Positions 4,271 to 15,235 of a DNA stretch of 15,235 nt are shown here, in pieces (positions within the stretch are counted from its first letter, which is position 1; each line of letters begins with the position of its first letter). Source of the DNA: an uncultured Lachnospiraceae bacterium. Lineage in GTDB: Bacteria; Bacillota_A; Clostridia; Lachnospirales; Lachnospiraceae. The notes below the pieces were generated by a model. It was not told the DNA's origin and searched no databases. It saw only the letters and a program-made list of their open reading frames with translations. The DNA lies in NCBI GenBank assembly GCA_946410365.1, contig CAMKAA010000007.1:1-15235 (forward strand). The letters run 5' to 3'. A program made the position numbers and the translations under genes.

Positions 4271-7200
4271 TCAGTTCTTTTTTCTTTTTCGCCGGAGAAT
4301 CCATGCTGCGCATGCCAGGGCAGCTGCAAAGATTACAGTCCACAATACCGGACTGCTTCCGTCGCCCGTTGCTGTTCCGGCCCGTGTCTTTCGTCTGACC
4401 GTCTGCGCTTTGTCTTTAAGATCACTATGTGCCCCGACCACTTTTTCGGCGTCTTTATCCGTCCCGGTCTCATACAGCGTCTCAAACACAACATATTCCC
4501 CGTCCCTGAGATCCGCGGAATTGAACCTGAATGCAGCAGATACTTCCCCGTTTCTCTTCTCAGCTGTAAACACAGTTTCCCCTGTGATCTCCCGTCCTCC
4601 GCTCATGGCAGGTTTTCCGGAAGATTTTTCCATCAGGACACCGGAAATCCGATATTTTGTCCCCGGCGTAAGATTTCTGTAAGTAACTGTATCGTTGATC
4701 TGTACAGTACCTTCAGAGGCGATCTCGCGGTCTCCGTCTGCAAGGTCTGCCGCGGATGTGCGGATCCACGGGAAGTCGATGCTCTGCGCTTCATCTTCCA
4801 GATTCTCGTGGACGAACACGTCCTTGCCGCAGGAACTCACTTTCTCAAACGCAGTGACGGACTTTCCCGCGATCTGTGAAGCGTCAAATTCAAACACCAC
4901 AGTCACGCTCCCGTCCGGGCTCTCAGGTACAAACTCCTTTGAAACCGTCACCTGATTTCCGCCCGACAGCACGGGTAAACCTGTCTCTTTATCCACGAGG
5001 GTTCCCGTCACGGTGTATGTCTTGCCGGGGATCAGGTTGATATAGCTCACCTCATCCAGAATCCTGACCTCTTCGTCCGCGTTTGCGGTATGGCCTCCGG
5101 TATCGCTGTCCCGGGCTGTTGTTCTTCCGTCAGGGAAGTGGATCGTCTGCTCCTCATCTTCGAGATCCTCATGGGAGAACAAAAGGACCCTGGTCCCTTC
5201 TTCCGCATTGATGTATTCCATAGTCTCGAATATGACCGCGCTTCTGCCCCTTAGTTCATCGGAGTTGAGGGCAAAATATACATCCACACTTCCGTCTCTC
5301 TCTTTGGGCGTGAAGATCTGTTCCGGCTCTTCTCTGCCGTCCTCATCCACCATCACAGCATCGAGTTCCCGCGCTTTTTCTTCGCCGGAAGGTTTTTGCA
5401 TCACTCTTCCGCGCACTGCGTATTCAGCTCCGGGTACAAGGTTCCTGTAAAAGATCCGGTCTCTTATGATCACTTTCCCGCCGGCCATCATTGTGTGTTC
5501 CTCTGTATCCGGGTCCACAGCCATGGTATGTCCTTCGGGAAGATATATTGTCTGTCCTTCATCTTCCGGATCCTTGTGCTGCGCGATAATAGATGTATCC
5601 AGGTACAGTTCTTCAAAAACAACAAGTTCGTTCCCGGCAAGCCGCGACGCATCGAAGTTAAAGAACAGCTCCTCTTCCCCTTCGGGGCTCTCAGGAATAA
5701 ATGTCTTTTCCGCTGTCACTTCTCCGCCGTTTACTGTCAATGGCTCTCCCGTGGATCTCACCGCGAGTACGCCTTTCAGCGTATACTCTCTGCCCGGAAG
5801 AAGGTTCTCATAGGAGATCGTGTCCCTGATCTCCGCCTCTTCCCCTGCGGGCAGGATATGATCGCCCGCAGCCGGATTTATCGCCTCTGTTCCGATCCGC
5901 GGAAAGTAAACATGCTGCGACATGTCTTCAAGGTCCTCATGAACAGCCAGCTCCTTTCCCCCGCACTGCAAAGACTCATAGACAACTGCTGTTTTTCCGG
6001 CGAGTGTGCTGTCCCCGTAAAAAGTGAATACTATATCGACAGTACCGTCGATCGAGTCCGCAGTGAAGCTTTTCTCCGCGGTGATTTCATTGCCCCCGGC
6101 ATCTCTCAGTGTCTTCCCGGTTTCCCGGTCCACAAGATGTCCCTTCATGACATATTGTCTGCCGATGACCAGGTCTTTGTACGATACGCTGTCCAGGATC
6201 GAGATCTCTCCTTCGGCAAAAGCATTCTTAGAACCGGTCGCCTGATCACAAGCCAGTGTTATGATTCCGGGCGGGACCGGAGTGTCCTCAACCACAAAAC
6301 TGTCAGAAGTTTCCCTCTTACCCTGTATATCCACAAGTTCGGCATCCCCTGAACCGGAGATCTCCCTGATCTGTCCGATATACATTTTAAAGCCGTCAAA
6401 AGTGCCGTCATTAATATATCCCGGGGCAGCTTCTGTCTCCTCGATCGTGACGGTCCCAAGGGGAAGGATCACCTCTTCTCCCTTTTTATACAGCGTTCCG
6501 GAGACAAGATTTTCATCCCGCAGAGCCGCGGTATATCTGCCTTCGTCTGCCAATACTTTTATGACCCAGCTCGCGGCAGGTTCTGAGGGAAGTGAAGAGG
6601 CATCATAATATCCGTCATAATAATTGACCGTGAATTTCGTTCCTTCAAGGCTGTTGCACTTTCCCTCTTCTTCTCCTTTACATTTTTTCTCGATTATTAA
6701 ATCTGCGGGAATAGATTTTAGCCCGTCATAAGCGGTGACCAGTGTTGTCTCGCCGGCAGAAGCAGTGAATTCATAGACCTCGTCAGACCTCTTGTAACCT
6801 TTCGGGGCGATACCTTCGATCATATAGTATGTTCCCGGACTCAGTTCGACAGTACCGGATGTGCCGTCCGCACCTGTGATCAGAGTGCCTCCCTTCACAA
6901 ACCCGTCGCTTCCTCTGGCGAGTGCGGCTTCTCTGGATGTATAGATCCAGTAACGCGCGTCTTTAAATCCATAACAACTGTTTCCACCTGTAATGTCAGG
7001 ATCAGAGGATACTTTTTTAACTTTAGCGCCGGGCAGGAGAGAAAAACACCCGAAGCCGAAATTCTGATGCCTGTACCCATAACTGGAGCGTCCGTTCTGC
7101 TCAGTGACATAGCCGTAATAGTCATTGGGAACGGGAAGATCCTCGATCGCGTTAACATATCTGTATACCAGGTCTCTCAATCTGCTGTTCGCGTCTGCAA

Positions 7201-8458
7201 ATCCTTCTCCGGGATCGGACTGGGAATAGCCGAGCCTTGCGTAGATCTCAGACGCGGCGACATGAGTGACAATATTATTGAAGCCATAGTCAGAGGTGCC
7301 TGTTACCCTTTCGATCACATCTGATCCGGGACCACTCGGCCCGTAATAAAGAGCTTTAACAAACATAGGAGCTGAAACCTGATACACCTCTCCGGCATAC
7401 ACACCTTCCATCTCGCGTCCGTCCAAATGCGGATCCAGACAATAGGACCAGCCTACGCGTTTGTCCCCCAGATAGATGCCGTAGCAGAAAGTTGACCAGT
7501 CTTCCTCATCACCGCCTAAAAGCCCGTATTTCTTATACCAGTAGCGGTATCCTCCCCTGTGGGATACTTTGATCAGCCCCGTGACGTTTCTGATCCCGCC
7601 TCCGCCTTTCTTCCAATCCGGTTCCGGCACTGCCGTCAGCACAGCATTTCGGGCCTTTTTCTCAGAGACGTCTTTTTTCGGTTGAACTGCCGCCTCTCCG
7701 GAAGTATCCTTTCCAAATTCAATGTCAAAGATCATCCTGTCCCCTGCCATGACTGTCGCGGTATAGGCAAAAGCCTCTTTTCCGTCACTGAATCCGGTCT
7801 CCTCTTTACTGCCGTTATCACTGCTCACCGAATACAGGGAGATCAGATACCCTTCCGCCGGCTCCGCGATCACTGTGAGCATTGTGTCCTGCGGATATTC
7901 CGCATCCAGTACATATCCATCTTCGTTCACGTCCGTGATCTCAGGATCACAGCCGCGTTTAGTCAGACTGACTCTGCCGTCTTCTTCTCTTTGCAGTGTG
8001 TAAGAAGGATCTTCTTCCGATGCCTCCTCATCGCTATCCGCGATCACTTTGATCACGCCTCCGCTGCAGTCAGTCCGGATCGCGATCCTTCCTGTCTTAG
8101 CAGTCTCTCCGGGCTCTTCTTCAGCTGCGGGAGCCTGTGTTGTTCCGATTCCAGGCTCTTCCCTTTCCGCTGCTTCCGCCGCTGTATTTCCTGTCCCGTT
8201 TTCGTCTGTTTCACCATTCTGCGGTGAAACATCATTCACCGAAGAAGCGGGATTGCCCGATGAAGGTTCTCCTTCAGGCAATTCCTGTATCCCGTCGTTC
8301 ATTTCTGTCCCCGCGCTTTCGGCGCCTGCCTCCGCTGCGGTCTCTGCAGTACCCGCGTCAAAAGATTCCGCGGCGAATACTGTCCCCGGAACCGACGTCG
8401 AAATGACTGCAGCCGCTGCGATCGCTGCTGCAAGCAGCCAGCTTAATAACCTCTTCAT
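4271..8458 (-). CDS. Wall-anchored VaFE-repeat surface protein with thioester-like and SpaA-like domains
   Basis: This 1395-residue protein starts at ATG 8458, with AGGAG 7 bases upstream; an upstream in-frame ATG at 8524 would bury the signal peptide. Domains in order: signal peptide (1-30, cleavage near VFAA/E); acidic low-complexity linker (31-122); a beta-rich domain (about 123-252); a thioester-domain-like region (about 290-478, Cys325, Cys340, His399); a SpaA-like domain (478-580, candidate isopeptide Lys481 or Lys482 and Glu548); a second SpaA-like domain (587-725, with the EETEAAPGY motif); five VaFE repeats (about 731-1355); a GTATGD sorting-like motif (1361-1366); a membrane helix (about 1370-1388); and the basic tail RRKRKKN. 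It should be exported by Sec and displayed on the wall as a rigid stalk bearing an adhesive head. Function as an adhesin or pilus-like fibre is inferred. No sortase gene lies nearby. Confidence 0.92.
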   Translation of the reverse strand: MKRLLSWLLAAAIAAAAVISTSVPGTVFAAESFDAGTAETAAEAGAESAGTEMNDGIQELPEGEPSSGNPASSVNDVSPQNGETDENGTGNTAAEAAEREEPGIGTTQAPAAEEEPGETAKTGRIAIRTDCSGGVIKVIADSDEEASEEDPSYTLQREEDGRVSLTKRGCDPEITDVNEDGYVLDAEYPQDTMLTVIAEPAEGYLISLYSVSSDNGSKEETGFSDGKEAFAYTATVMAGDRMIFDIEFGKDTSGEAAVQPKKDVSEKKARNAVLTAVPEPDWKKGGGGIRNVTGLIKVSHRGGYRYWYKKYGLLGGDEEDWSTFCYGIYLGDKRVGWSYCLDPHLDGREMEGVYAGEVYQVSAPMFVKALYYGPSGPGSDVIERVTGTSDYGFNNIVTHVAASEIYARLGYSQSDPGEGFADANSRLRDLVYRYVNAIEDLPVPNDYYGYVTEQNGRSSYGYRHQNFGFGCFSLLPGAKVKKVSSDPDITGGNSCYGFKDARYWIYTSREAALARGSDGFVKGGTLITGADGTSGTVELSPGTYYMIEGIAPKGYKRSDEVYEFTASAGETTLVTAYDGLKSIPADLIIEKKCKGEEEGKCNSLEGTKFTVNYYDGYYDASSLPSEPAASWVIKVLADEGRYTAALRDENLVSGTLYKKGEEVILPLGTVTIEETEAAPGYINDGTFDGFKMYIGQIREISGSGDAELVDIQGKRETSDSFVVEDTPVPPGIITLACDQATGSKNAFAEGEISILDSVSYKDLVIGRQYVMKGHLVDRETGKTLRDAGGNEITAEKSFTADSIDGTVDIVFTFYGDSTLAGKTAVVYESLQCGGKELAVHEDLEDMSQHVYFPRIGTEAINPAAGDHILPAGEEAEIRDTISYENLLPGREYTLKGVLAVRSTGEPLTVNGGEVTAEKTFIPESPEGEEELFFNFDASRLAGNELVVFEELYLDTSIIAQHKDPEDEGQTIYLPEGHTMAVDPDTEEHTMMAGGKVIIRDRIFYRNLVPGAEYAVRGRVMQKPSGEEKARELDAVMVDEDGREEPEQIFTPKERDGSVDVYFALNSDELRGRSAVIFETMEYINAEEGTRVLLFSHEDLEDEEQTIHFPDGRTTARDSDTGGHTANADEEVRILDEVSYINLIPGKTYTVTGTLVDKETGLPVLSGGNQVTVSKEFVPESPDGSVTVVFEFDASQIAGKSVTAFEKVSSCGKDVFVHENLEDEAQSIDFPWIRTSAADLADGDREIASEGTVQINDTVTYRNLTPGTKYRISGVLMEKSSGKPAMSGGREITGETVFTAEKRNGEVSAAFRFNSADLRDGEYVVFETLYETGTDKDAEKVVGAHSDLKDKAQTVRRKTRAGTATGDGSSPVLWTVIFAAALACAAWILRRKRKKN
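4394..6268 (-). repeat. Five tandem VaFE (T-Q ester bond) domain repeats in the surface protein
   Basis: Five units of about 120-130 residues each begin near a Thr (residues 734, 857, 978, 1113 or 1114, and 1234) and end in H-x-D/N-x-x-D-x-x-Q, with Gln at 848, 969, 1104, 1225 and 1352. Each has a central Asp in a (L/R/N)D-x-(V/I)-x-Y-x-(D/N)-L block and a V-aromatic-(F/Y)-E-like motif (VVYES, VVFEE, AVIFE, VTAFE, VVFET). In the known T-Q ester family these Thr and Gln form an intramolecular ester crosslink. Unit 3 carries an extra acidic insert of about 12 residues. Confidence 0.85.
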
Positions 8459-8826
8459 CTCTTTACTCCTGCTAATATGACTTATGAATTGTGACTTTAT
8501 AAAAACGGGTAACGAGAGCGGCATTTGAAGCCGGACCGGTAAACTGGGAGAACTACCCGGTATTGTCTTTGCTTAAAATGGATGATCTGCGCGGAAAAAA
8601 GCGCGTGAAATGCAGCTTTAAGAAAACAGCCTCATTGTTCCGGCGGCAAAAGATCGCTGCCCGATCCGGAACCGATAGGGAGATTATAGTTTATGCTGAA
8701 CAAAATTGTGCCTGTTATTTTAAAAAAGGCCGCAAAAAACGCGGCATATCTTCAGATATGCCGCGTTTTCGACTCGATTTCGTATTAATTCTAAATACTT
8801 TTCGGTGGATATTCCGCCGAAGCAGG
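8459..8826. other. Intergenic region between the ATPase and surface-protein genes
   Basis: No convincing gene lies in these 368 bases. They hold the ATPase terminator (8736-8769) and the upstream region of the surface-protein gene. Two weak minus-strand promoter candidates are visible. One is a perfect -10 TATAAT (8683-8688) with a poor -35, which would give a leader of over 200 bases. The other is TATAAA (8486-8491) close to the gene, also with a poor -35. AGGAG at 8466-8470 is the ribosome binding site. A 5-bp ACCGG/CCGGT stem sits near 8534-8560, too weak to interpret. No known riboswitch was recognised. Confidence 0.5.
8736..8769 (-). terminator. Intrinsic terminator of the HerA-like ATPase gene
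   Basis: AAAACGCGGCATATC (8736-8750) is perfectly complementary to 8755-8769 around the loop TTCA, giving a 15-bp stem. On the minus strand the stem runs into T-rich sequence (TTTTTT, then GCGGCC, then TTTTTT). It lies 57 bases past the ATPase stop codon. The plus-strand side also has a short T-run, so it could work in both directions. Confidence 0.85.
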
Positions 8827-10458
8827 TCAACCGCCGAAAAGGGTGTTGAGAATTCCTCTTCCAAGGCTGGATCCTAGATTGCCTCCGAGAGTCTTGCCAA
8901 ATTTTCCGCCGATGGTTCCGCCCACTGTCTTTCCTACTTCGCGGCCGACCGTACCGGCTACAGTACCTCCTATGGACTTGGCTGCGCGCTTCTTGGCGAG
9001 CGCTTCCTTTTCGGCTTCTCTTGCTGCCGCTGCCGCCTCTTTCGCTTGCTGTTTGGCGGCTTCCGCCTCTTCCTTCGCTCTCTGTTTGGCAGCCTCAGCT
9101 TCTTCCTTCGCTCTCTGTTTGGCAGCCTCAGCTTCTTCCTTCGCTCTGGCAAGCGCTGCTTCCTTCTCTACTCCGAGACGAAGGAGGATCTCATATGCGG
9201 ATTCGGGATCGACTGCTTCCGCGTACTTGCCGTAGAGAATGCTTTCCTTGATCTTCTGGTCCCTCTCGTAATCAGTCACAGCGCCCATGCGGCTCTGCGG
9301 AGGCAGAATGTATACCTTCTGCGCAATGCTCGGAGTGCCGTCCTCCTGAAGGAAAGATACCACTGCTTCTCCGGTTCCCAGTCCCAGGATCGTGTCAAAA
9401 GTATTGAATGCGGGATTGACCCGGAATGATTCCGCTGCTGCCTTGACAGCCTTCTGGTCCGCGGGTGTATAAGCACGGAGCCCATGCTGGACTCTGTTGC
9501 TCAGCTGCGCGAGAACCCCGTCCGGAATATCTCTGGGATTCTGTGTGCAGAAATAGACTCCTACGCCCTTGGAGCGGATGAGCTTGACTACCTGCTCAAT
9601 TTTCTCGATCAGCGCCTTAGGCGCGTCGTTGAAGAGCAGATGGGCCTCATCAAAGAAGAATACCATCTTGGGCCTTGAGAGATCGCCCACTTCCGGAAGC
9701 ATCTCAAACAGTTCAGAGAGAAGCCACAGAAGGAATGTGGAATAGAGTCTTCCGTTGTTGATCAGGCTCTCGCTGTCCAGGATATTGATCATGCCTTTTC
9801 CGCCTTCTGCAGCCAGCCAGTCGCGGATATTGAGACCGGGTTCCCCGAAGAATGTCTCACCGCCGTCTATCTCCAGAGCGACAACAGCGCGAAGGATCGC
9901 GGCAATGGATGCGGGACTCATCTTGCCGTACATAGCTTCATAATCCTTGCGGTTATCATTCACATGATTGAGCATGGCCTTGAGATCCTTGAGATCGATC
10001 AGAAGAAGTCCGTCGTCGTCTGCGATCTTAAAGATGATCGACAGAATGTTGGACTGCAGCTCATTAAGTTTGAGGATGCGGGCCAGAAGAAGCGGTCCCA
10101 TCTCAGAGACCGTGGTCCTGAGCTGAATGCCCTTTACACCGTAAATATCCCAGAATGTGACCGGATATCCCTGATAGGAAAAACCATGCTGCGCAAGACC
10201 GAAGCGCTCGATCCTGGCGCGCATATTCTCGCTGTCCTCACCGGGAGCCATCATTCCGGCAATATCTCCCTTGACGTCCGCGAGAAATACGGGAACTCCC
10301 ATATCGCTGAACGCCTCAGCCATAACTTTGAGTGTTACGGTCTTACCTGTTCCGGTCGCACCGGCTACCAGGCCATGCCTGTTTGCCTTTCCGGGCAGAA
10401 GACAGATTTCCTCTCCGGCATCATTAAGAGCCAGCCAAATTTTGCCATCCTTATACAC
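8827..10458 (-). CDS. HerA/YjgR-like P-loop ATPase (DUF853 family)
   Basis: This 543-residue protein belongs to the HerA-FtsK-type ATPases related to E. coli YjgR. The family block ANRHGLVAGATGTGKT includes the Walker A GATGTGKT at residues 33-40. ADVKGDIAGM (60-69) follows, then Walker B MVFFFDEAH (265-273), and CTQNPRDIPDGVLAQLSNR (304-322) with the sensor and arginine-finger region. Residues about 431-492 form a charged coiled coil with an 11-residue repeat AKEEAEAAKQR. The last about 48 residues are a Gly-rich segment with G spaced every three to four residues (IGGTVAGTVG...). The start is GTG at 10458: the family N-terminus MYKDGKI begins there and GGGGG lies 7 bases upstream. The cellular role of YjgR proteins is not established. 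The 110-base gap from the preceding SGNH gene holds only an imperfect hairpin (10502-10532) and a weak -10 (TATACT, 10555-10560). Confidence 0.92.
   Translation of the reverse strand: MYKDGKIWLALNDAGEEICLLPGKANRHGLVAGATGTGKTVTLKVMAEAFSDMGVPVFLADVKGDIAGMMAPGEDSENMRARIERFGLAQHGFSYQGYPVTFWDIYGVKGIQLRTTVSEMGPLLLARILKLNELQSNILSIIFKIADDDGLLLIDLKDLKAMLNHVNDNRKDYEAMYGKMSPASIAAILRAVVALEIDGGETFFGEPGLNIRDWLAAEGGKGMINILDSESLINNGRLYSTFLLWLLSELFEMLPEVGDLSRPKMVFFFDEAHLLFNDAPKALIEKIEQVVKLIRSKGVGVYFCTQNPRDIPDGVLAQLSNRVQHGLRAYTPADQKAVKAAAESFRVNPAFNTFDTILGLGTGEAVVSFLQEDGTPSIAQKVYILPPQSRMGAVTDYERDQKIKESILYGKYAEAVDPESAYEILLRLGVEKEAALARAKEEAEAAKQRAKEEAEAAKQRAKEEAEAAKQQAKEAAAAAREAEKEALAKKRAAKSIGGTVAGTVGREVGKTVGGTIGGKFGKTLGGNLGSSLGRGILNTLFGG
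9035..9146 (-). repeat. 33-bp tandem repeats coding the ATPase coiled coil
   Basis: A 33-bp unit recurs with exact phase at 9068, 9101 and 9134. The last copy is partial, and a degenerate copy lies at about 9035-9067. Each unit encodes the 11-residue AKEEAEAAKQR motif. Near identity at the DNA level suggests recent in-frame expansion, so copy number may vary between strains. Confidence 0.8.
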
Positions 10459-10568: not shown

Positions 10569-11609
10569 CTATTGCTCTTTGGCTTTTTCTTTTTCCTCTT
10601 TCCGTTCCTTTTCTATCCGCTTTTGGACATGGTAGAAACTGATGCCTTCCATCTCATCCACAAGCTTGTCGTAGGCCGTAAGTTCCTCATCCCAGCTGCT
10701 GTAAGCGGGATCTCCCCTGTGATCGGTGAGGATTCCTTCCCTGCTGAAATAATCGCCGAAAAAGGTGGTCATCTTTTTGACACCGTCCAGGTTCATGTGG
10801 TCCCCGCGATCGTTGGAATCTGTCTTCCAGTTGATCCCGATCTCATCGGTGTGCTGGTTCATGTCGATGTACTCGACGCCTTCCTCCCGCGCAAACTCAG
10901 CGATATTGTTGACCCTGGTCCAGTTGTAGTTCCTGGGAGAGGCGTCACTGTAAAGGATCAGCTTGATACCCTTATCGTCGCAGAATTTTTTGACCTTGCG
11001 GAACCATGTGCGGTTGAAATCAGGAATCTGTGTCCTGACATCCCCCAGCTCCTCATTCATATAGTCCGGGCTGCCTTCGTATTCCTGAACTTCCCGGTTG
11101 ATCAGATACCCTTTGTGATAGATCTTGACTCCCCTTCCCTCAATGTAAGGCTTCCAGATACTGTGGTATTTAAGAAAAGTAAACCGGTGATAAAGAGGCT
11201 GGGACAGGATCATCTGCATATCCTGCTTGTCATTGTATCTGAAGAGAGGAAGTGTCTCAAAGAGAAGGTACCTGACATTCTGATCCTCGGCCGCTTCCAG
11301 GACCGTATAATAGATTTCCGGCATCCGAATGCCATCCGCTCCGATGTTGAAGGCGGTATATCCCTTCTGTCTCCACAGCTCCATCGGGGTCAGAGAGGAA
11401 AGGCTCAGACTGTCCCCCATGTTGAGAACATCGACCGTGTAAGGCTCCTGCTTCATCATCTCTGTGATCCTTGCATTTCTGTTCTGGACCCGGTTGTCGT
11501 CAAACCATTTGACCGGAGTCGACAGAGCGGATGCAGCGGTCAGAAGGAGCAGAAAAACCGCGCCGAATAGTATTAACCTGATTATTCCCGTATTTTTTAC
11601 GTTCGACAT
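10569..11609 (-). CDS. SGNH hydrolase/DltD-like membrane-anchored protein (second copy in operon)
   Basis: This 346-residue protein has an N-terminal membrane helix (about residues 9-30) followed by an extracytoplasmic SGNH-like domain. The nucleophile motif GDSLS puts Ser67 after Gly-Asp, and the C-terminal GDHMN block (269-273) supplies the expected Asp270/His271 pair. The conserved NIGADGIRM (88-96) is shared with its neighbour. The tail is a highly charged helix (about 328-346). DltD, PatB and AlgX-type SGNH proteins pair with MBOAT acyltransferases to move acyl groups on wall or exopolysaccharide polymers; that role here is inferred from context. The start at 11609 has GAGG 5 bases upstream. 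It is the last gene of the cluster, 84 bases after its paralogue, with a hairpin between them. Confidence 0.85.
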   Translation of the reverse strand: MSNVKNTGIIRLILFGAVFLLLLTAASALSTPVKWFDDNRVQNRNARITEMMKQEPYTVDVLNMGDSLSLSSLTPMELWRQKGYTAFNIGADGIRMPEIYYTVLEAAEDQNVRYLLFETLPLFRYNDKQDMQMILSQPLYHRFTFLKYHSIWKPYIEGRGVKIYHKGYLINREVQEYEGSPDYMNEELGDVRTQIPDFNRTWFRKVKKFCDDKGIKLILYSDASPRNYNWTRVNNIAEFAREEGVEYIDMNQHTDEIGINWKTDSNDRGDHMNLDGVKKMTTFFGDYFSREGILTDHRGDPAYSSWDEELTAYDKLVDEMEGISFYHVQKRIEKERKEEKEKAKEQ

Positions 11610-11638
11610 TACAGCCTCATATAATTAATTGGTTACGC

Positions 11639-11687
11639 AAAGGACTTCCGGCATGAGTATTACACTCTTTTGACCCGGAAGTCCTTT
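11639..11687 (-). other. Long intercistronic hairpin between the two SGNH genes
   Basis: AAAGGACTTCCGG (11639-11651) is perfectly complementary to CCGGAAGTCCTTT (11675-11687), a 13-bp stem around a 23-base loop that holds a further GAGT/ACTC pairing. No T-run follows on either strand, so it is not a classic terminator. It starts 7 bases past the stop codon of the upstream gene and could protect the mRNA 3' end, mark a processing site, or partly stop transcription. Confidence 0.7.
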
Positions 11688-11693
11688 GAAGCT

Positions 11694-12764
11694 TCACTTT
11701 TTCACATCGTTATTATTTGTGGTATCTTCTTTTCTGTACTTCTCGTCCCACTCTTTTTCCTTTTTTTCAGTGTAGATGTCAAGGAAGCTCTTTCCTTCCA
11801 TCTCTTCGACGAGTTTGTCATAATCCACAAGTTCATCATCCCAGTCACTGTAAGCGGGATCGCCCCTGTGATCCGTCAGGTCCAGGTTGTTCCGGAAATA
11901 ATTTCCAAAGTACTTTACGACTTTCCTGGCGCCGTTCAGATTCATGTGATCACCGCCGTCGTTGGTATCCTGGCTCCAGTCAAGGCCCAGCTCATCCAGT
12001 TTCCCGTTCAGGTCGATATATGTCACGCCCTTCTCTTTCGCGAAAGACTCCATGGCATCGATCCTGACCTGGTTGTAGTTCTTTGCCGAAGGCATACTGT
12101 AGATGATGATCTGTATACCTCTTTCGTCGCAGAACTTCTTTATCCGGTCAAAAACCAGACTGTTAAAGGCAGATACGCGCATCTTGCTGTTGGGATCATT
12201 GATGTCGAGGTCAAGATAATCCTCTTCACCGTCGTATTCCCAAACATTCTGATTGACAGTATAGCCCCTGTGATAGACCATGATGCCTTCTTCTTCCACC
12301 AGGGATTTCCAGATATTGTGGTATTTCAGGAAAGGAAACCGGTGGTAGAGAGGCTGGGAGAGAGTCATCTGCAGGTCCTGCCCCATCGCATAGCGAAAGA
12401 GCACCAGAGATTCGATCATTAAATACTTGGGCTTCTGCTTCTCACAGGCTTCGACTACCGCGTAATAAGCTTCCTGCATGCGTATACCGTCAGCACCGAT
12501 ATTGAAAGAAGTATAGCCCTGTTCTCTCCAGAGTTCCAACGGCGAGAAACCGGCGGTACTCAGGCTGTCTCCAAGATTAAAAACGTCGATCGTATCGGCA
12601 GGCTGTTCCATCATCTGCACAGTACGGGCATTTCTGTCCTGGATCTTATTTTCATCAAACCATTTCGTGGGTCTCATCATTGCTGACGCAATTACGACAG
12701 CAAGTAATGCAACGGCCCCGAAAAGGATCAGTTTAACAATACTCTTTCTGCTGTCTTGTGTCAT
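11694..12764 (-). CDS. SGNH hydrolase/DltD-like membrane-anchored protein (first copy in operon)
   Basis: This 356-residue protein is a paralogue of the downstream gene, about half identical by eye across its whole length. It has a membrane helix near residues 9-29, then GDSLS with Ser67, NIGADGIRM (88-96), LSQPLYHRF, and GDHMN with Asp272/His273. Near the C-terminus LTDHRGDPAYS is shared exactly with the paralogue, followed by a charged, Asn-rich tail. The ATG is one base after the MBOAT stop (TGATATG), so the two are almost certainly translationally coupled. A DltD-like role, helping the MBOAT hand its acyl group to an acceptor outside the membrane, is the best inference; a deacylase or esterase role is also possible. 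Confidence 0.87.
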   Translation of the reverse strand: MTQDSRKSIVKLILFGAVALLAVVIASAMMRPTKWFDENKIQDRNARTVQMMEQPADTIDVFNLGDSLSTAGFSPLELWREQGYTSFNIGADGIRMQEAYYAVVEACEKQKPKYLMIESLVLFRYAMGQDLQMTLSQPLYHRFPFLKYHNIWKSLVEEEGIMVYHRGYTVNQNVWEYDGEEDYLDLDINDPNSKMRVSAFNSLVFDRIKKFCDERGIQIIIYSMPSAKNYNQVRIDAMESFAKEKGVTYIDLNGKLDELGLDWSQDTNDGGDHMNLNGARKVVKYFGNYFRNNLDLTDHRGDPAYSDWDDELVDYDKLVEEMEGKSFLDIYTEKKEKEWDEKYRKEDTTNNNDVKK

Positions 12765-12765
12765 A

Positions 12766-14346
12766 TCAGAACCCCGCGTAGATCAGGTCTACAGGCTGAT
12801 AACCGGTACCGTAAGCGCCGAACAGCAGGATCGCGAAAATGATCAGATAATAAACGCTCCACTTGTAAGGAGTGCGCGCGTTCAGTATTTTTCCTCTCAC
12901 ATCGACGCCCTTCTCCTTGAGGAACCCGACGATCCATACGATAACGCTTCCTACGCAGATCGCCCAGACATCTCCCGTCGTGATCGCGTTAGGCCAGTAC
13001 TTCCACAGCGAACTGATGTGGAAGTTTCCGAAGATACTGAAGAACATATGGAATCCCGCTTTAAGGTTAACGGCGTTGAAGAACAGTTCTCCGGTAAAGA
13101 TGATCACCCATGTCTTGAGGATCCTCAGAGTCTTGAGCCACCAGGCGTTCGGATCGAGACCCATCTTTGCGTAATTCTTCTCCTTGATCGGCTCCATCGC
13201 CACTCCAAAGAGAAGGATCACAAAGTAGTACATTCCGTAGAACAGGTATTTCCACCCCGCTCCGTGCCAGACGCCTGTCGCCACCCATACGGGGAAAAGC
13301 GCCATAGCAGATGTTCCGACCATTGACCAATACTTTCCGTATTTCTTTCTGGCCGTCTTGTTCCAGTTCTTCACCATCGGAGACACTGTGATCGGATAGA
13401 ACACATAGTTCTTGAACCAGTTTCCAAGGCTCATGTGCCAGCGCCTCCAGAATTCCGCGGCGCTCTGCGCCGAGAAAGGCTGGTTGAAGTTCTCCGGAAT
13501 CGTCACGCCAAACAATTTGCCGCTTCCGATAACGATGTCAATACTGCCGGAGAATTCAAGGTACAGCTGGATCGTATAGGCGATCGCAGCCAGAACGATA
13601 AAACTTCCGTGATAATCCTGGTAATTGCCGAACAGATGCGTAGTAAGGTAACTGAGTCTGTCAGAGATCACCATCTTCTTGAACAGACCCCAGATGATCC
13701 TGAGGAAACCTTCATTCAGGTTCGCCATATTCAGGGGCTCCCCTGCAAACAGCGCGTCTGAAGTATCGGGATATCTCGCAATGGGGCCCTCCATGATCTG
13801 GGGGAAGAAACTCAGAAACAGGGCCAGTTTGCCCAAATGCTTCTCAGCGGGATATCTCTCCCAGTATACGTCGGCGATGTAGCCGACCGCCTCCATGGTA
13901 TAGAATGAAATTCCCATGGGAAACATCACTTTCGCCATCGGAAGCTGTGAGCCGAGTTTGCCCAAAAAGAGATTCATGTTCTCGATCACAAAATTCAGAT
14001 AGTTTACGTAAAACAGAATGCCCAGCAAAACAAGGACTCCCACTCTGAGGGCGATCACCCTCTTCTTCTGGAACTCCTTTTTTACTTCACTCTTCTGTTT
14101 GCGGTCCGTGCACTCCGCCTGTTTCGCCTTGCAGGCCTCGCCGATCTTATCCAGCCATAGACCTATACCCCAGGTGAAAGCCGATGTCGCCATCAGCAGC
14201 AGCACAAGGTATTTACTGAATGAAATATACAATGCATAGCTGGCGGCGAGCAGAACTCCCCACCTTGCTTTTTTAGGTGCCAGCTGGTATACGATCAGAA
14301 CAACAGGCAGAAATACCAGCAGGTACAGATTGGTATATATGGCCAT
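12766..14346 (-). CDS. MBOAT-family O-acyltransferase (DltB/AlgI-like)
   Basis: This 526-residue polytopic membrane protein has roughly ten or more hydrophobic segments. AlgI/DltB hallmarks appear in order: an N-terminal FLPVVLIVYQLAPKK segment, GISFYTMEAVGYIADVY (145-161), FFPQIMEGPIARY (180-192), a FSGSID motif (265-270) where relatives have SGYSD, EFWRRWHMSLGNW (298-310), and WHGAGWKYLFYG (360-371), whose His361 is the expected catalytic residue. A basic cytoplasmic loop lies at about 68-97. Such enzymes take an acyl group from a carrier thioester and pass it across the membrane. It starts 4 bases after the carrier-protein stop (TGA-GTAA-ATG), with AGGAG inside the carrier gene. That pairing suggests the carrier protein is its donor. 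Confidence 0.94.
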   Translation of the reverse strand: MAIYTNLYLLVFLPVVLIVYQLAPKKARWGVLLAASYALYISFSKYLVLLLMATSAFTWGIGLWLDKIGEACKAKQAECTDRKQKSEVKKEFQKKRVIALRVGVLVLLGILFYVNYLNFVIENMNLFLGKLGSQLPMAKVMFPMGISFYTMEAVGYIADVYWERYPAEKHLGKLALFLSFFPQIMEGPIARYPDTSDALFAGEPLNMANLNEGFLRIIWGLFKKMVISDRLSYLTTHLFGNYQDYHGSFIVLAAIAYTIQLYLEFSGSIDIVIGSGKLFGVTIPENFNQPFSAQSAAEFWRRWHMSLGNWFKNYVFYPITVSPMVKNWNKTARKKYGKYWSMVGTSAMALFPVWVATGVWHGAGWKYLFYGMYYFVILLFGVAMEPIKEKNYAKMGLDPNAWWLKTLRILKTWVIIFTGELFFNAVNLKAGFHMFFSIFGNFHISSLWKYWPNAITTGDVWAICVGSVIVWIVGFLKEKGVDVRGKILNARTPYKWSVYYLIIFAILLFGAYGTGYQPVDLIYAGF

Positions 14347-14350
14347 TTAC

Positions 14351-14578
14351 TCAGTTCTCCTGAAGCCTCTCGATCATTTTCCACATTGCAGCTGCAGAGT
14401 TGAAGTTCTCGGGAGTCATCTCCGCCGCGTCTACTTCAATATCAAAATGCTCCTCGATCTCGGAGATCAGAGTGATGATTCCGAAGGAATCAAGAATGTG
14501 ATCGTCAATGAGAGCTGTCTCGTTCTCATAGTCTACAGAGTCGTCGATGTCCTGCAGGATTTCCAGTAATTCTTCCAT
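14351..14578 (-). CDS. Acyl/aminoacyl carrier protein, DltC-like
   Basis: This 75-residue acidic protein has the length and helical pattern of a carrier protein. The motif ILDSFGIITLISEIEEHFDIEV (broken here: ILDSFG at 28-33, then an IEEHFDI block) resembles D-alanyl carrier protein DltC, which has LLDSFGTVELL. Ser31 is the expected phosphopantetheine attachment site. It has the strongest ribosome binding site in the cluster, fitting the high levels carrier proteins need. It follows the PLP decarboxylase by 96 bases and precedes the MBOAT by 4. It probably carries the acyl or aminoacyl group that the MBOAT transfers; which group cannot be read from the sequence. Confidence 0.9.
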   Translation of the reverse strand: MEELLEILQDIDDSVDYENETALIDDHILDSFGIITLISEIEEHFDIEVDAAEMTPENFNSAAAMWKMIERLQEN

Positions 14579-14583
14579 AATTT

Positions 14584-14589
14584 CCTCCT
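14584..14589 (-). promoter_or_regulatory. Consensus ribosome binding site of the carrier-protein gene
   Basis: AGGAGG on the minus strand lies 5 bases before the ATG at 14578, a full consensus match that fixes the start. The 96-base gap upstream (14579-14674) is A+T rich and could hold an internal promoter: TTGTGA, 16 bases, TAAATA is the best candidate, but weak. Confidence 0.75.
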
Positions 14590-14674
14590 AGTATTCTTCA
14601 TATAGTGTAAGTAACATGCTTATCATAACTTATTTACAGCAAAACTGCCATATCACAATGGGATTTGTTTGCCC

Positions 14675-15235
14675 TCAATATTTTGCCATATTGAAAGTGT
14701 AGGACTGGATCTGGTCCCTTGCCCTGATAAACCCGTCCTTCTCTCCGAAGAGCACTACCGCGGGCAGTTCATGGCTGAGGAACAGAGACATTCCCTCGTA
14801 AAAACTGTAGGCGCCTGTCTTAAAGAAGACGACACGGTCACCAAGTCCGAGTGTTGCCGGAAAGCTCCGGCAAAGCAGATCGTTCATTGTGCAGAGAGAT
14901 CCGTAGATGCCCCAGTCCTTCTGCACTCTGTCACAGGGCTCGTCCGCAGGGATCACTGCCATCTGGGGCCTGTACATTCCCTTGATCTGCCCGTCGTAAT
15001 TGAGCTGATGAATGCCGCCGTCCACAAGGCAGATCGCGTTGCCGTTGTTCTCCTTGATGTCCAGTGCTGTCGTCACATAGCATCCGCACTCAGCAGCATA
15101 GGCTCTTCCCATCTCAATGGTCACGATGCCTTTCCACTTCATATCCTGCACCATCTGACGGAACATCTCAAGGTGCTCCGGATCCCGCAGGTCCTCTTCC
15201 TTCTTCTTCTGGTCCTCGAAATAGGAAACGGCAAA
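14675..15235 (-). CDS. PLP-dependent decarboxylase, diaminopimelate/ornithine decarboxylase fold type III, 5' end off right edge
   Basis: The visible 186 C-terminal residues continue in frame to the edge and correspond to the end of the barrel plus the C-terminal beta domain. Family landmarks in order: GIVTIEMGRAYAAECG (usual EPGR...AG), a CLVDGGIHQL block (usual vDgG), GSLCTMNDLL (in diaminopimelate decarboxylase PICESGDVL), GLGDRVVF, and GAYSFYEG (usual aGAYg, with the Tyr that contacts PLP). The Cys of the CxxxD motif is kept, but the Glu that reads the distal amino group of diaminopimelate is Thr, so it is probably not LysA. The usual Pro of EPGR is Met. Position just before the carrier gene suggests it acts on a carrier-bound or related amino acid; an amino-acid racemase or free-substrate decarboxylase remains possible. 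The N-terminal PLP-lysine region is not visible. Confidence 0.82.
   Translation of the reverse strand, partial: FAVSYFEDQKKKEEDLRDPEHLEMFRQMVQDMKWKGIVTIEMGRAYAAECGCYVTTALDIKENNGNAICLVDGGIHQLNYDGQIKGMYRPQMAVIPADEPCDRVQKDWGIYGSLCTMNDLLCRSFPATLGLGDRVVFFKTGAYSFYEGMSLFLSHELPAVVLFGEKDGFIRARDQIQSYTFNMAKY

Follow-up and report, generated by a model that had tools for sequence, protein, structure and literature searches.

Which residue is carried to the cell surface by a Dlt-like export cluster when one of its genes encodes a decarboxylase? The question is raised by a stretch of 15,235 nucleotides from an uncultured Lachnospiraceae bacterium (contig CAMKAA010000007.1; this whole stretch is the window), in which genes for a pyridoxal 5'-phosphate (PLP) decarboxylase, a small carrier, a DltB-like MBOAT acyltransferase and two SGNH proteins follow each other on the minus strand. 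We hypothesize that the cluster is a Dlt relative with an added decarboxylation step, by which an acidic amino acid would be loaded, decarboxylated on the carrier and exported to an extracellular polymer, a reading to which we give an even chance. Many gut Lachnospiraceae have such a cluster and probably use it to decorate an outer polymer not with D-alanine but with the decarboxylation product of an acidic amino acid, which may be beta-alanine.

The first-pass annotation had described five genes on one strand with a spacing of 1-4 bases at the core, and both points hold. The frames occupy positions 10569-15235 in the transcription order decarboxylase, carrier, MBOAT, SGNH1 and SGNH2, the domains of the first three are identified by Pfam, and the gaps measure 96 bases (decarboxylase-carrier), 4 (carrier-MBOAT), 1 (MBOAT-SGNH1) and 84 (SGNH1-SGNH2):

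14675..15235, minus strand: PLP decarboxylase of alanine-racemase fold, C-terminal 186 residues (PF00278, 33.9 bits, cut-off 23)
14891-14893, minus strand: catalytic Cys of the decarboxylase, motif C-T-M-N-D, placed by alignment
14351..14578, minus strand: carrier, 75 residues (PP-binding PF00550, 21.9 bits, cut-off 20.8); DltC and peptidyl carrier structures match
14486-14488, minus strand: Ser31 in the phosphopantetheine D-S motif of the carrier
12766..14346, minus strand: DltB-like MBOAT acyltransferase, 526 residues (PF03062, 44.5 bits, cut-off 27)
13264-13266, minus strand: His361 in the single W-H-G motif of the MBOAT, a motif invariant across 16 aligned rows
11694..12764, minus strand: SGNH1, with an N-terminal hydrophobic stretch, G-D-S (Ser67) and D-G-G-D-H (Asp269, His273), in the place of DltD
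10569..11609, minus strand: SGNH2, a second protein of the SGNH1 kind, with an N-terminal hydrophobic stretch

The decarboxylase frame is cut by the end of the contig, and its 186 residues share 98% identity with the C-terminus of a complete 400-residue protein from locus L002, a contig of a Lachnospiraceae metagenome-assembled genome. This contig supplies the part beyond the window, namely a 507-residue adenylating ligase (6934-8457) followed 9 bases later by the decarboxylase (8466-9668) and, downstream of it, carrier, MBOAT and two SGNH proteins. An AMP-binding ligase had been anticipated beyond the window and is indeed found directly upstream of the decarboxylase in relatives; likewise, domains of a phosphopantetheinyl transferase, which had also been looked for, occur in 18 of the 18 genomes examined.

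An alignment search with the MBOAT confirmed 235 loci, and the 80 that matched best, and so are closest to the window's MBOAT, were retained; their record titles name Lachnospiraceae genera or bins, or wider Firmicutes/Clostridia bins. Cultured bacteria with the cluster include Suipraeoptans intestinalis (L019), Blautia sp. An81 (L020) and Claveliimonas bilis (L041). On the upstream side of the MBOAT, 72 of the 80 loci extend for 3.2 kb or more; of these, 64 have ligase and decarboxylase (62 in the full order ligase, decarboxylase, carrier and MBOAT), one (L073) has ligase and carrier without decarboxylase, and seven have none of the three upstream, two of these (L050 and L070) presenting ligase, decarboxylase and carrier downstream instead. 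The eight loci with shorter upstream sequence comprise two with the full set, three with decarboxylase and carrier and three with nothing, and an SGNH gene lies 3' of the MBOAT in 79 of the 80. In the surroundings of 116 decarboxylase hits, which come from 142 loci and include duplicates, since some genomes were fetched more than once, a ligase (112), a carrier (111), an MBOAT (105) or an SGNH gene (86) is located on the same strand within 8 kb. Each set of loci is conditional on the query used, be it MBOAT, decarboxylase or the DltA model. Since the gene order is conserved in dozens of genomes, the arrangement is not due to chance, and the expected conservation of decarboxylase and carrier in relatives is confirmed. 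Seven distinct loci (L091, L102, L103, L107, L108, L139 and L142) show a changed gene order with the trio retained. Among 68 measured cases, 29 have a decarboxylase frame that runs 1-38 bases into the carrier frame, the carrier starts being set mechanically. A fusion was sought as proof of coupling, and no open frame matched two of the five profiles built here. The long frame of L091 (6713-10057) was rejected as a fusion of cluster parts, as it joins the decarboxylase to Ig-like and transglutaminase-type surface domains, which is odd for a cytoplasmic enzyme and possibly an assembly error.

In order of score, the top NCBIfam model for the L002 decarboxylase is TIGR03099 (156 bits, cut-off 478), LysA TIGR01048 reaches 142 bits against a cut-off of 298, and the nearest solved structure is BtrK (98.3 bits; best diaminopimelate (DAP) decarboxylase, 86.5). 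Alignment of the decarboxylase group reveals a conserved PLP lysine, E-x-G-R, the catalytic Cys and a Tyr, with C-T/S-x-x-D and Y-x-G-Q where LysA has C-E and R-P-x-x-Y, the motifs that bind the far end of DAP; the BtrK counterparts, C-T-P-E-D and F-R-G-R, are close. In a tree of 40 rows, all 26 decarboxylase rows belong to a single clade (100/100), which a branch supported at 98/94 unites with BtrK and BtrK-like rows, leaving LysA on the opposite side. The cluster decarboxylase was found in 17 of the 18 genomes examined, and 16 of these 17 also have a separate LysA-type gene, scoring 265-290 bits, just below the LysA cut-off of 297.9; the one such gene that was aligned (L004) has both C-E and R-P-x-x-Y, and in G005 the LysA-type gene is seen as fragments only. 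The 18th genome, G016, has a LysA over the cut-off and no cluster decarboxylase. In the closest relatives (L002-L007) a separate housekeeping lysA is located about 2 kb upstream of the ligase. Judged by its sequence, the decarboxylase is a PLP enzyme of alanine-racemase fold that lies outside the LysA clade and has a BtrK-like catalytic loop. A plain LysA, which the first-pass annotation had considered would speak against its interpretation, is ruled out by score, motif, tree and the separate LysA-type gene, and an exosortase-type pair is ruled out by the TIGR03099 score together with that of the L002 ligase against TIGR03098 (180 bits, cut-off 592). BtrK-like decarboxylases of Clostridia also occur in other gene surroundings (L101, L133, L134 and L135); small carrier-like D-S frames, noted by eye, adjoin the lower-scoring decarboxylases of L133-L135, and none is shown at L136 and L137.

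The ligase is not a canonical DltA, the other gene that would have spoken against that annotation: against TIGR01734 (cut-off 559.85) it scores 263.8 bits in L002 and 294.8 in L010. With pocket positions numbered after GrsA, the main type reads D-V-K-[ITV]-[MLI]-S-[LVI]-C-N with rare exceptions, and Asp235, Lys239, Ser301 and Cys330 are present in 69 of 69 ligase frames of more than 440 residues in the first 80 loci, two fragments having been dropped. The contrast with DltA is clear in condensed form (D-V-K-S-L-C-N vs D-L-M-C-T-V-A): SDLMVLCTV(A/C) is found in all four DltA-type ligases L143-L146 and DLMVLCTVA in L111, of which L111, L143 and L144 are over the TIGR01734 cut-off and L145 and L146 below it. 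The pocket survey covered 132 ligases with distinct C-terminal 430 residues, merging only identical ends, so that close relatives are not independent, and used a profile built mostly from decarboxylase-linked ligases. A decarboxylase lies no more than 5.5 kb from 108 of the 132 ligases; every one of these has Lys or Arg at position 239, and 106 have Asp or Asn at position 233. This invariant basic residue points to an acidic substrate for the ligase. A tree of 62 ligases contains one group of 39 (Shimodaira-Hasegawa-like approximate likelihood ratio, SH-aLRT, 83), made up of 35 decarboxylase-linked ligases (30, plus five with another code or gene order) and four without a decarboxylase; the DltA group (100) stands apart, as does a racemase-linked group (100) that includes L091, and the L107 ligase lies outside the main group on a very long branch. 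Among solved structures, beta-aminoacyl-ACP synthetases match the L002 ligase at 220 bits, above all DltA structures (188) and level with single nonribosomal peptide synthetase modules.

Based on these features, we propose that the stand-alone ligase would adenylate an acidic alpha-amino acid through its side-chain carboxylate and load it on the carrier, with aspartate favoured over glutamate, and that the BtrK-side decarboxylase would then strip the free alpha-carboxylate on the carrier to leave the carrier with a thioester-bound beta-alanyl (or 4-aminobutyryl) residue. Export would follow the scheme known for D-Ala: in the roles of DltB and DltD, the DltB-like MBOAT and the membrane-anchored SGNH proteins would pass the residue through the membrane and esterify an extracellular polymer with it. 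A PLP decarboxylase requires a free amino group and a carboxylate on the same carbon, and because that carboxylate must be free, a residue bound to the carrier through its alpha-carboxylate cannot be the substrate; hence, either the side-chain carboxylate is activated or the free acid is decarboxylated first. Since Lys239 calls for a ligase substrate with two carboxylates, loading first is favoured. A small acid, aspartate, leading to a beta-alanyl group, is weakly suggested because Val236, Ser301 and Leu322 equal the residues of the serine code. The first-pass annotation had foreseen a charge other than that of D-Ala, which is not expected of a beta-alanyl or 4-aminobutyryl group, with one amine as in D-Ala; its overall interpretation is partly supported. 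The proposed order has precedents: 3-methyl-Asp is loaded on a carrier by a stand-alone ligase and then decarboxylated in the VinN/VinL/VinO system, and decarboxylation likewise precedes the next step in the FlvN (Asp) pathway (PMC11284099), while glutamyl-BtrI is described as decarboxylated by BtrK (PMC7857480).

Several observations weigh against this proposal. A carrier was not recognised in L015 and L016, two of the 72 loci, where ligase and decarboxylase are present. Of 24 ligases without a decarboxylase neighbour, 14 have Lys239 and 10 do not, by which Lys239 is ruled out as a mark of the decarboxylase alone; at most, it would mark an acidic substrate. Among 107 main-code ligases with enough flank, four (L073, L177, L183 and L184) have no decarboxylase neighbour and are scattered within the ligase tree, a pattern which suggests that the decarboxylase was lost four times; a decarboxylase cluster exists elsewhere in G097 and G098, two of the four genomes, and in the other two, G016 and G020, no cluster decarboxylase was found. 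The ligases of L091 and L107 are linked to a decarboxylase, yet they have a different pocket and fall outside the ligase group, and the variant ligase of L102 matches DltA structures (189 bits) better than beta-aminoacyl-ACP synthetases (173). Furthermore, the ligase retains Asp235, the usual mark of alpha-carboxylate activation. Nevertheless, Asp235 would be compatible with side-chain loading, because PMC11284099 assigns amine binding to the conserved Asp in a beta-amino acid ligase too.

The decarboxylase might instead act on a free amino acid and supply the ligase with its substrate, such as free beta-Ala or 4-aminobutyrate, before loading and export. For this there is a precedent in IdnL3 of the incednine pathway, which decarboxylates free beta-glutamate (PMC11284099), and the genomes with the same ligase code where no decarboxylase was found look as if the substrate could come from elsewhere. 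We regard this alternative as unlikely, although deserving some weight, since the invariant Lys239 would be left without a partner if the substrate had no second carboxylate, and the decarboxylase gene is kept with ligase and carrier at nearly all of the 116 hits counted above. The beta-Ala code of the bleomycin system is also unlike the codes found here. The polymer as acceptor can be questioned as well, given that no MBOAT lies near some trios or pairs (L094, L095, L105 and L109), that a trio at L107 sits with radical SAM and UvrA-like genes and that BtrK-type enzymes otherwise serve antibiotic pathways; transfer to a small molecule, a glycolipid or a secreted natural product, and not to a wall polymer, is nevertheless rather improbable in view of an MBOAT that is related to DltB and accompanies 105 of those hits.

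The identity of the enzyme leaves room for two further readings. Given its alanine-racemase fold and the existence of sister clusters with an (unrelated) Asp/Glu racemase beside the ligase, it could be a racemase or another fold-III enzyme in a cluster that moves an ordinary D-amino acid; this is very unlikely, as the protein has the C-terminal domain and the catalytic Cys of a decarboxylase and groups with BtrK. Alternatively, meso-DAP could be loaded via its L-centre and decarboxylated on the carrier at the D-centre to leave a lysyl group, which would suit an enzyme with the LysA fold, and if the far end were held in a thioester, this would accord with the loss of the far-end DAP motifs. The pocket residues Val236, Ser301 and Leu322 correspond to a small-substrate code (the serine code), the decarboxylase clade lies on the BtrK side and direct loading of lysine would do, which makes this a remote prospect. 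Loading of an acidic amino acid followed by decarboxylation on the carrier is the reading retained below.

The remaining components resemble Dlt proteins to different degrees. The carrier falls below the DltC cut-offs (40.8 of 68 bits for PRK05087 and 28.6 of 52.35 for TIGR01688), and the MBOAT scores 144 bits against TIGR04091 DltB (cut-off 375), with a match to solved DltB at E 2e-21, by sequence only. As to the two proteins first annotated as DltD-like, a paralogous SGNH pair (55% identity over 323 positions) does stand in the place of DltD, but no match to Pfam DltD PF04914 was obtained among six SGNH proteins at E up to 5, and the SGNH profile aligned with eight canonical DltD rows at a weak probability of 56% over 82 C-terminal columns, compared with 100 for a mixture of eight SGNH rows, drawn from clusters of racemase type, decarboxylase type and other Dlt-like kinds. 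The label fits only loosely. SGNH1 scores 21 bits against GDSL_2, under the cut-off of 32.9, and the Gly, Ser, Asp and His of its catalytic motifs are invariant in 42 aligned rows. A canonical Dlt operon is ruled out by the family cut-offs of ligase, carrier and MBOAT and by the pocket code, and the DltD model is unmatched. Upstream of the ligase in L002 (5656-6756), and also in L001 and L003-L007, a divergently transcribed gene encodes a further SGNH protein, the third, which shares 38% identity with SGNH1. Downstream of the SGNH genes in L039, L073 and L080, a response regulator and likely sensor genes were noted by eye, the L039 regulator being confirmed by Pfam; control of envelope stress is often arranged as a regulator and a sensor after such genes. 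Nucleotide-sugar genes of dTDP-glucose dehydratase type, also by eye, lie beside the MBOAT-SGNH pairs of L049, L062 and L091 (Polysacc_synt_2 by Pfam in L049), a hint of a polysaccharide acceptor. Elsewhere in the window (4271-8524, minus strand), a 1417-residue surface protein combines a thioester domain, a SpaA fold and five T-Q ester bond domains.

In a profile search of 299 Lachnospiraceae genomes (the family of Suipraeoptans intestinalis), 58 contained a decarboxylase hit of at least 198 bits, a threshold chosen post hoc from the gap between at least 198 and at most 130 bits among the matches listed; G124 (186 bits) was left out because its locus, L101, is BtrK-like, and neighbourhoods were read for part of the 58. 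The class-level sample gave 14 of 391 genomes (at least 362 bits) and the phylum-level sample four of 398 (at least 400 bits). G006, the sampling centre, is included in every family, class, phylum, DltA and DltD sample. A canonical DltA above the cut-off was present in two of 100 Lachnospiraceae genomes and in one of 18 genomes chosen by way of the MBOAT loci; Pfam DltD was matched in 10 of 150 genomes, but in three of these weakly (28-35 bits). By these counts, canonical DltA is rare in Lachnospiraceae. In Gram-positive bacteria, D-alanylation determines how charged the envelope is and how well cationic peptides and lantibiotics are tolerated. Gut Lachnospiraceae nevertheless seem to lack it: in a survey, the count of complete dltABCD is zero in each of eight gut commensals (PMC10877564).

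Sister clusters with ligase, carrier, MBOAT and SGNH and the code YDAKC-A/C-GLGM, which includes Lys239, were found at eight loci. In six (L174, L175, L179, L187, L188 and L190), which belong to the 14 ligases with Lys239 and no decarboxylase neighbour, an Asp/Glu racemase gene lies directly upstream of the ligase, five being confirmed by PF01177 and that of L187 by a profile built here; in L189 such a gene is found some 7 kb downstream, and at L185 neither a racemase gene nor a carrier was recognised. No Asp/Glu racemase occurs within 5.5 kb of the 10 ligases that lack both a decarboxylase neighbour and Lys239, two of them with short flanks. Judging from the neighbouring racemase genes, the sister cluster probably puts D-Asp or D-Glu on the surface. 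Other variants include L183, where a formyltransferase-domain gene (PF00551; 7422-8303) separates carrier and ligase, the latter of main type with no local decarboxylase; L184, with a transglutaminase-domain gene (6462-7655) directly after the carrier; and L107 (4700-7564), whose second ligase-carrier-decarboxylase trio, without MBOAT, shares a contig with the main cluster L056.

We tentatively suggest, as a view that may well prove wrong, that in Lachnospiraceae the Dlt machine became an interchangeable aminoacylation family, of which the main member would decarboxylate an acidic amino acid on the carrier and modify a surface polymer with beta-alanyl or 4-aminobutyryl esters, and the sisters (with racemase or, at one locus, formyltransferase in place of the decarboxylase) would add other residues, canonical D-alanylation being rare. 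The apparent D-alanylation gap in gut Lachnospiraceae would be closed by a Dlt-like system that uses another amino acid. Searches for dlt would miss it, with ligase, carrier and MBOAT under the dlt cut-offs and the SGNH proteins missing the DltD model. If the proposal is true, carrier-bound decarboxylation joins envelope chemistry.

A search of the open literature, with subscription papers mostly outside its coverage, found no description of a Dlt-like cluster with a decarboxylase. Like the Dlt system, the cluster unites in one operon an adenylating ligase, a small carrier, a DltB-like MBOAT and an SGNH-type protein with a membrane anchor, but it differs in its extra PLP decarboxylase, in its ligase pocket, in ligase, carrier and MBOAT scores under the Dlt cut-offs and in the absence of a DltD match. 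With LysA the decarboxylase has in common the fold and the PLP site, but not the score, nor C-E and R-P-x-x-Y, and a separate LysA-type gene exists alongside; the exosortase-A-associated TIGR03098/TIGR03099 pair provides the best NCBIfam model for the decarboxylase and matches the ligase too, although with scores far under both cut-offs. In the BtrI/BtrK pair of butirosin biosynthesis, a PLP decarboxylase of the same branch, with the C-T motif, likewise adjoins a carrier, whereas the adenylation enzyme found here contrasts with BtrJ, an ATP-grasp ligase, and the product here would pass to a membrane acyltransferase. The VinN/VinL/VinO and FlvN systems of macrolactam biosynthesis also combine a stand-alone adenylation enzyme, a carrier and a PLP decarboxylase acting on a loaded acidic amino acid (PMC11284099), but feed a polyketide synthase. 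Each half of the cluster is known, and the union of Dlt-like export with a carrier decarboxylase is, to our knowledge, new.

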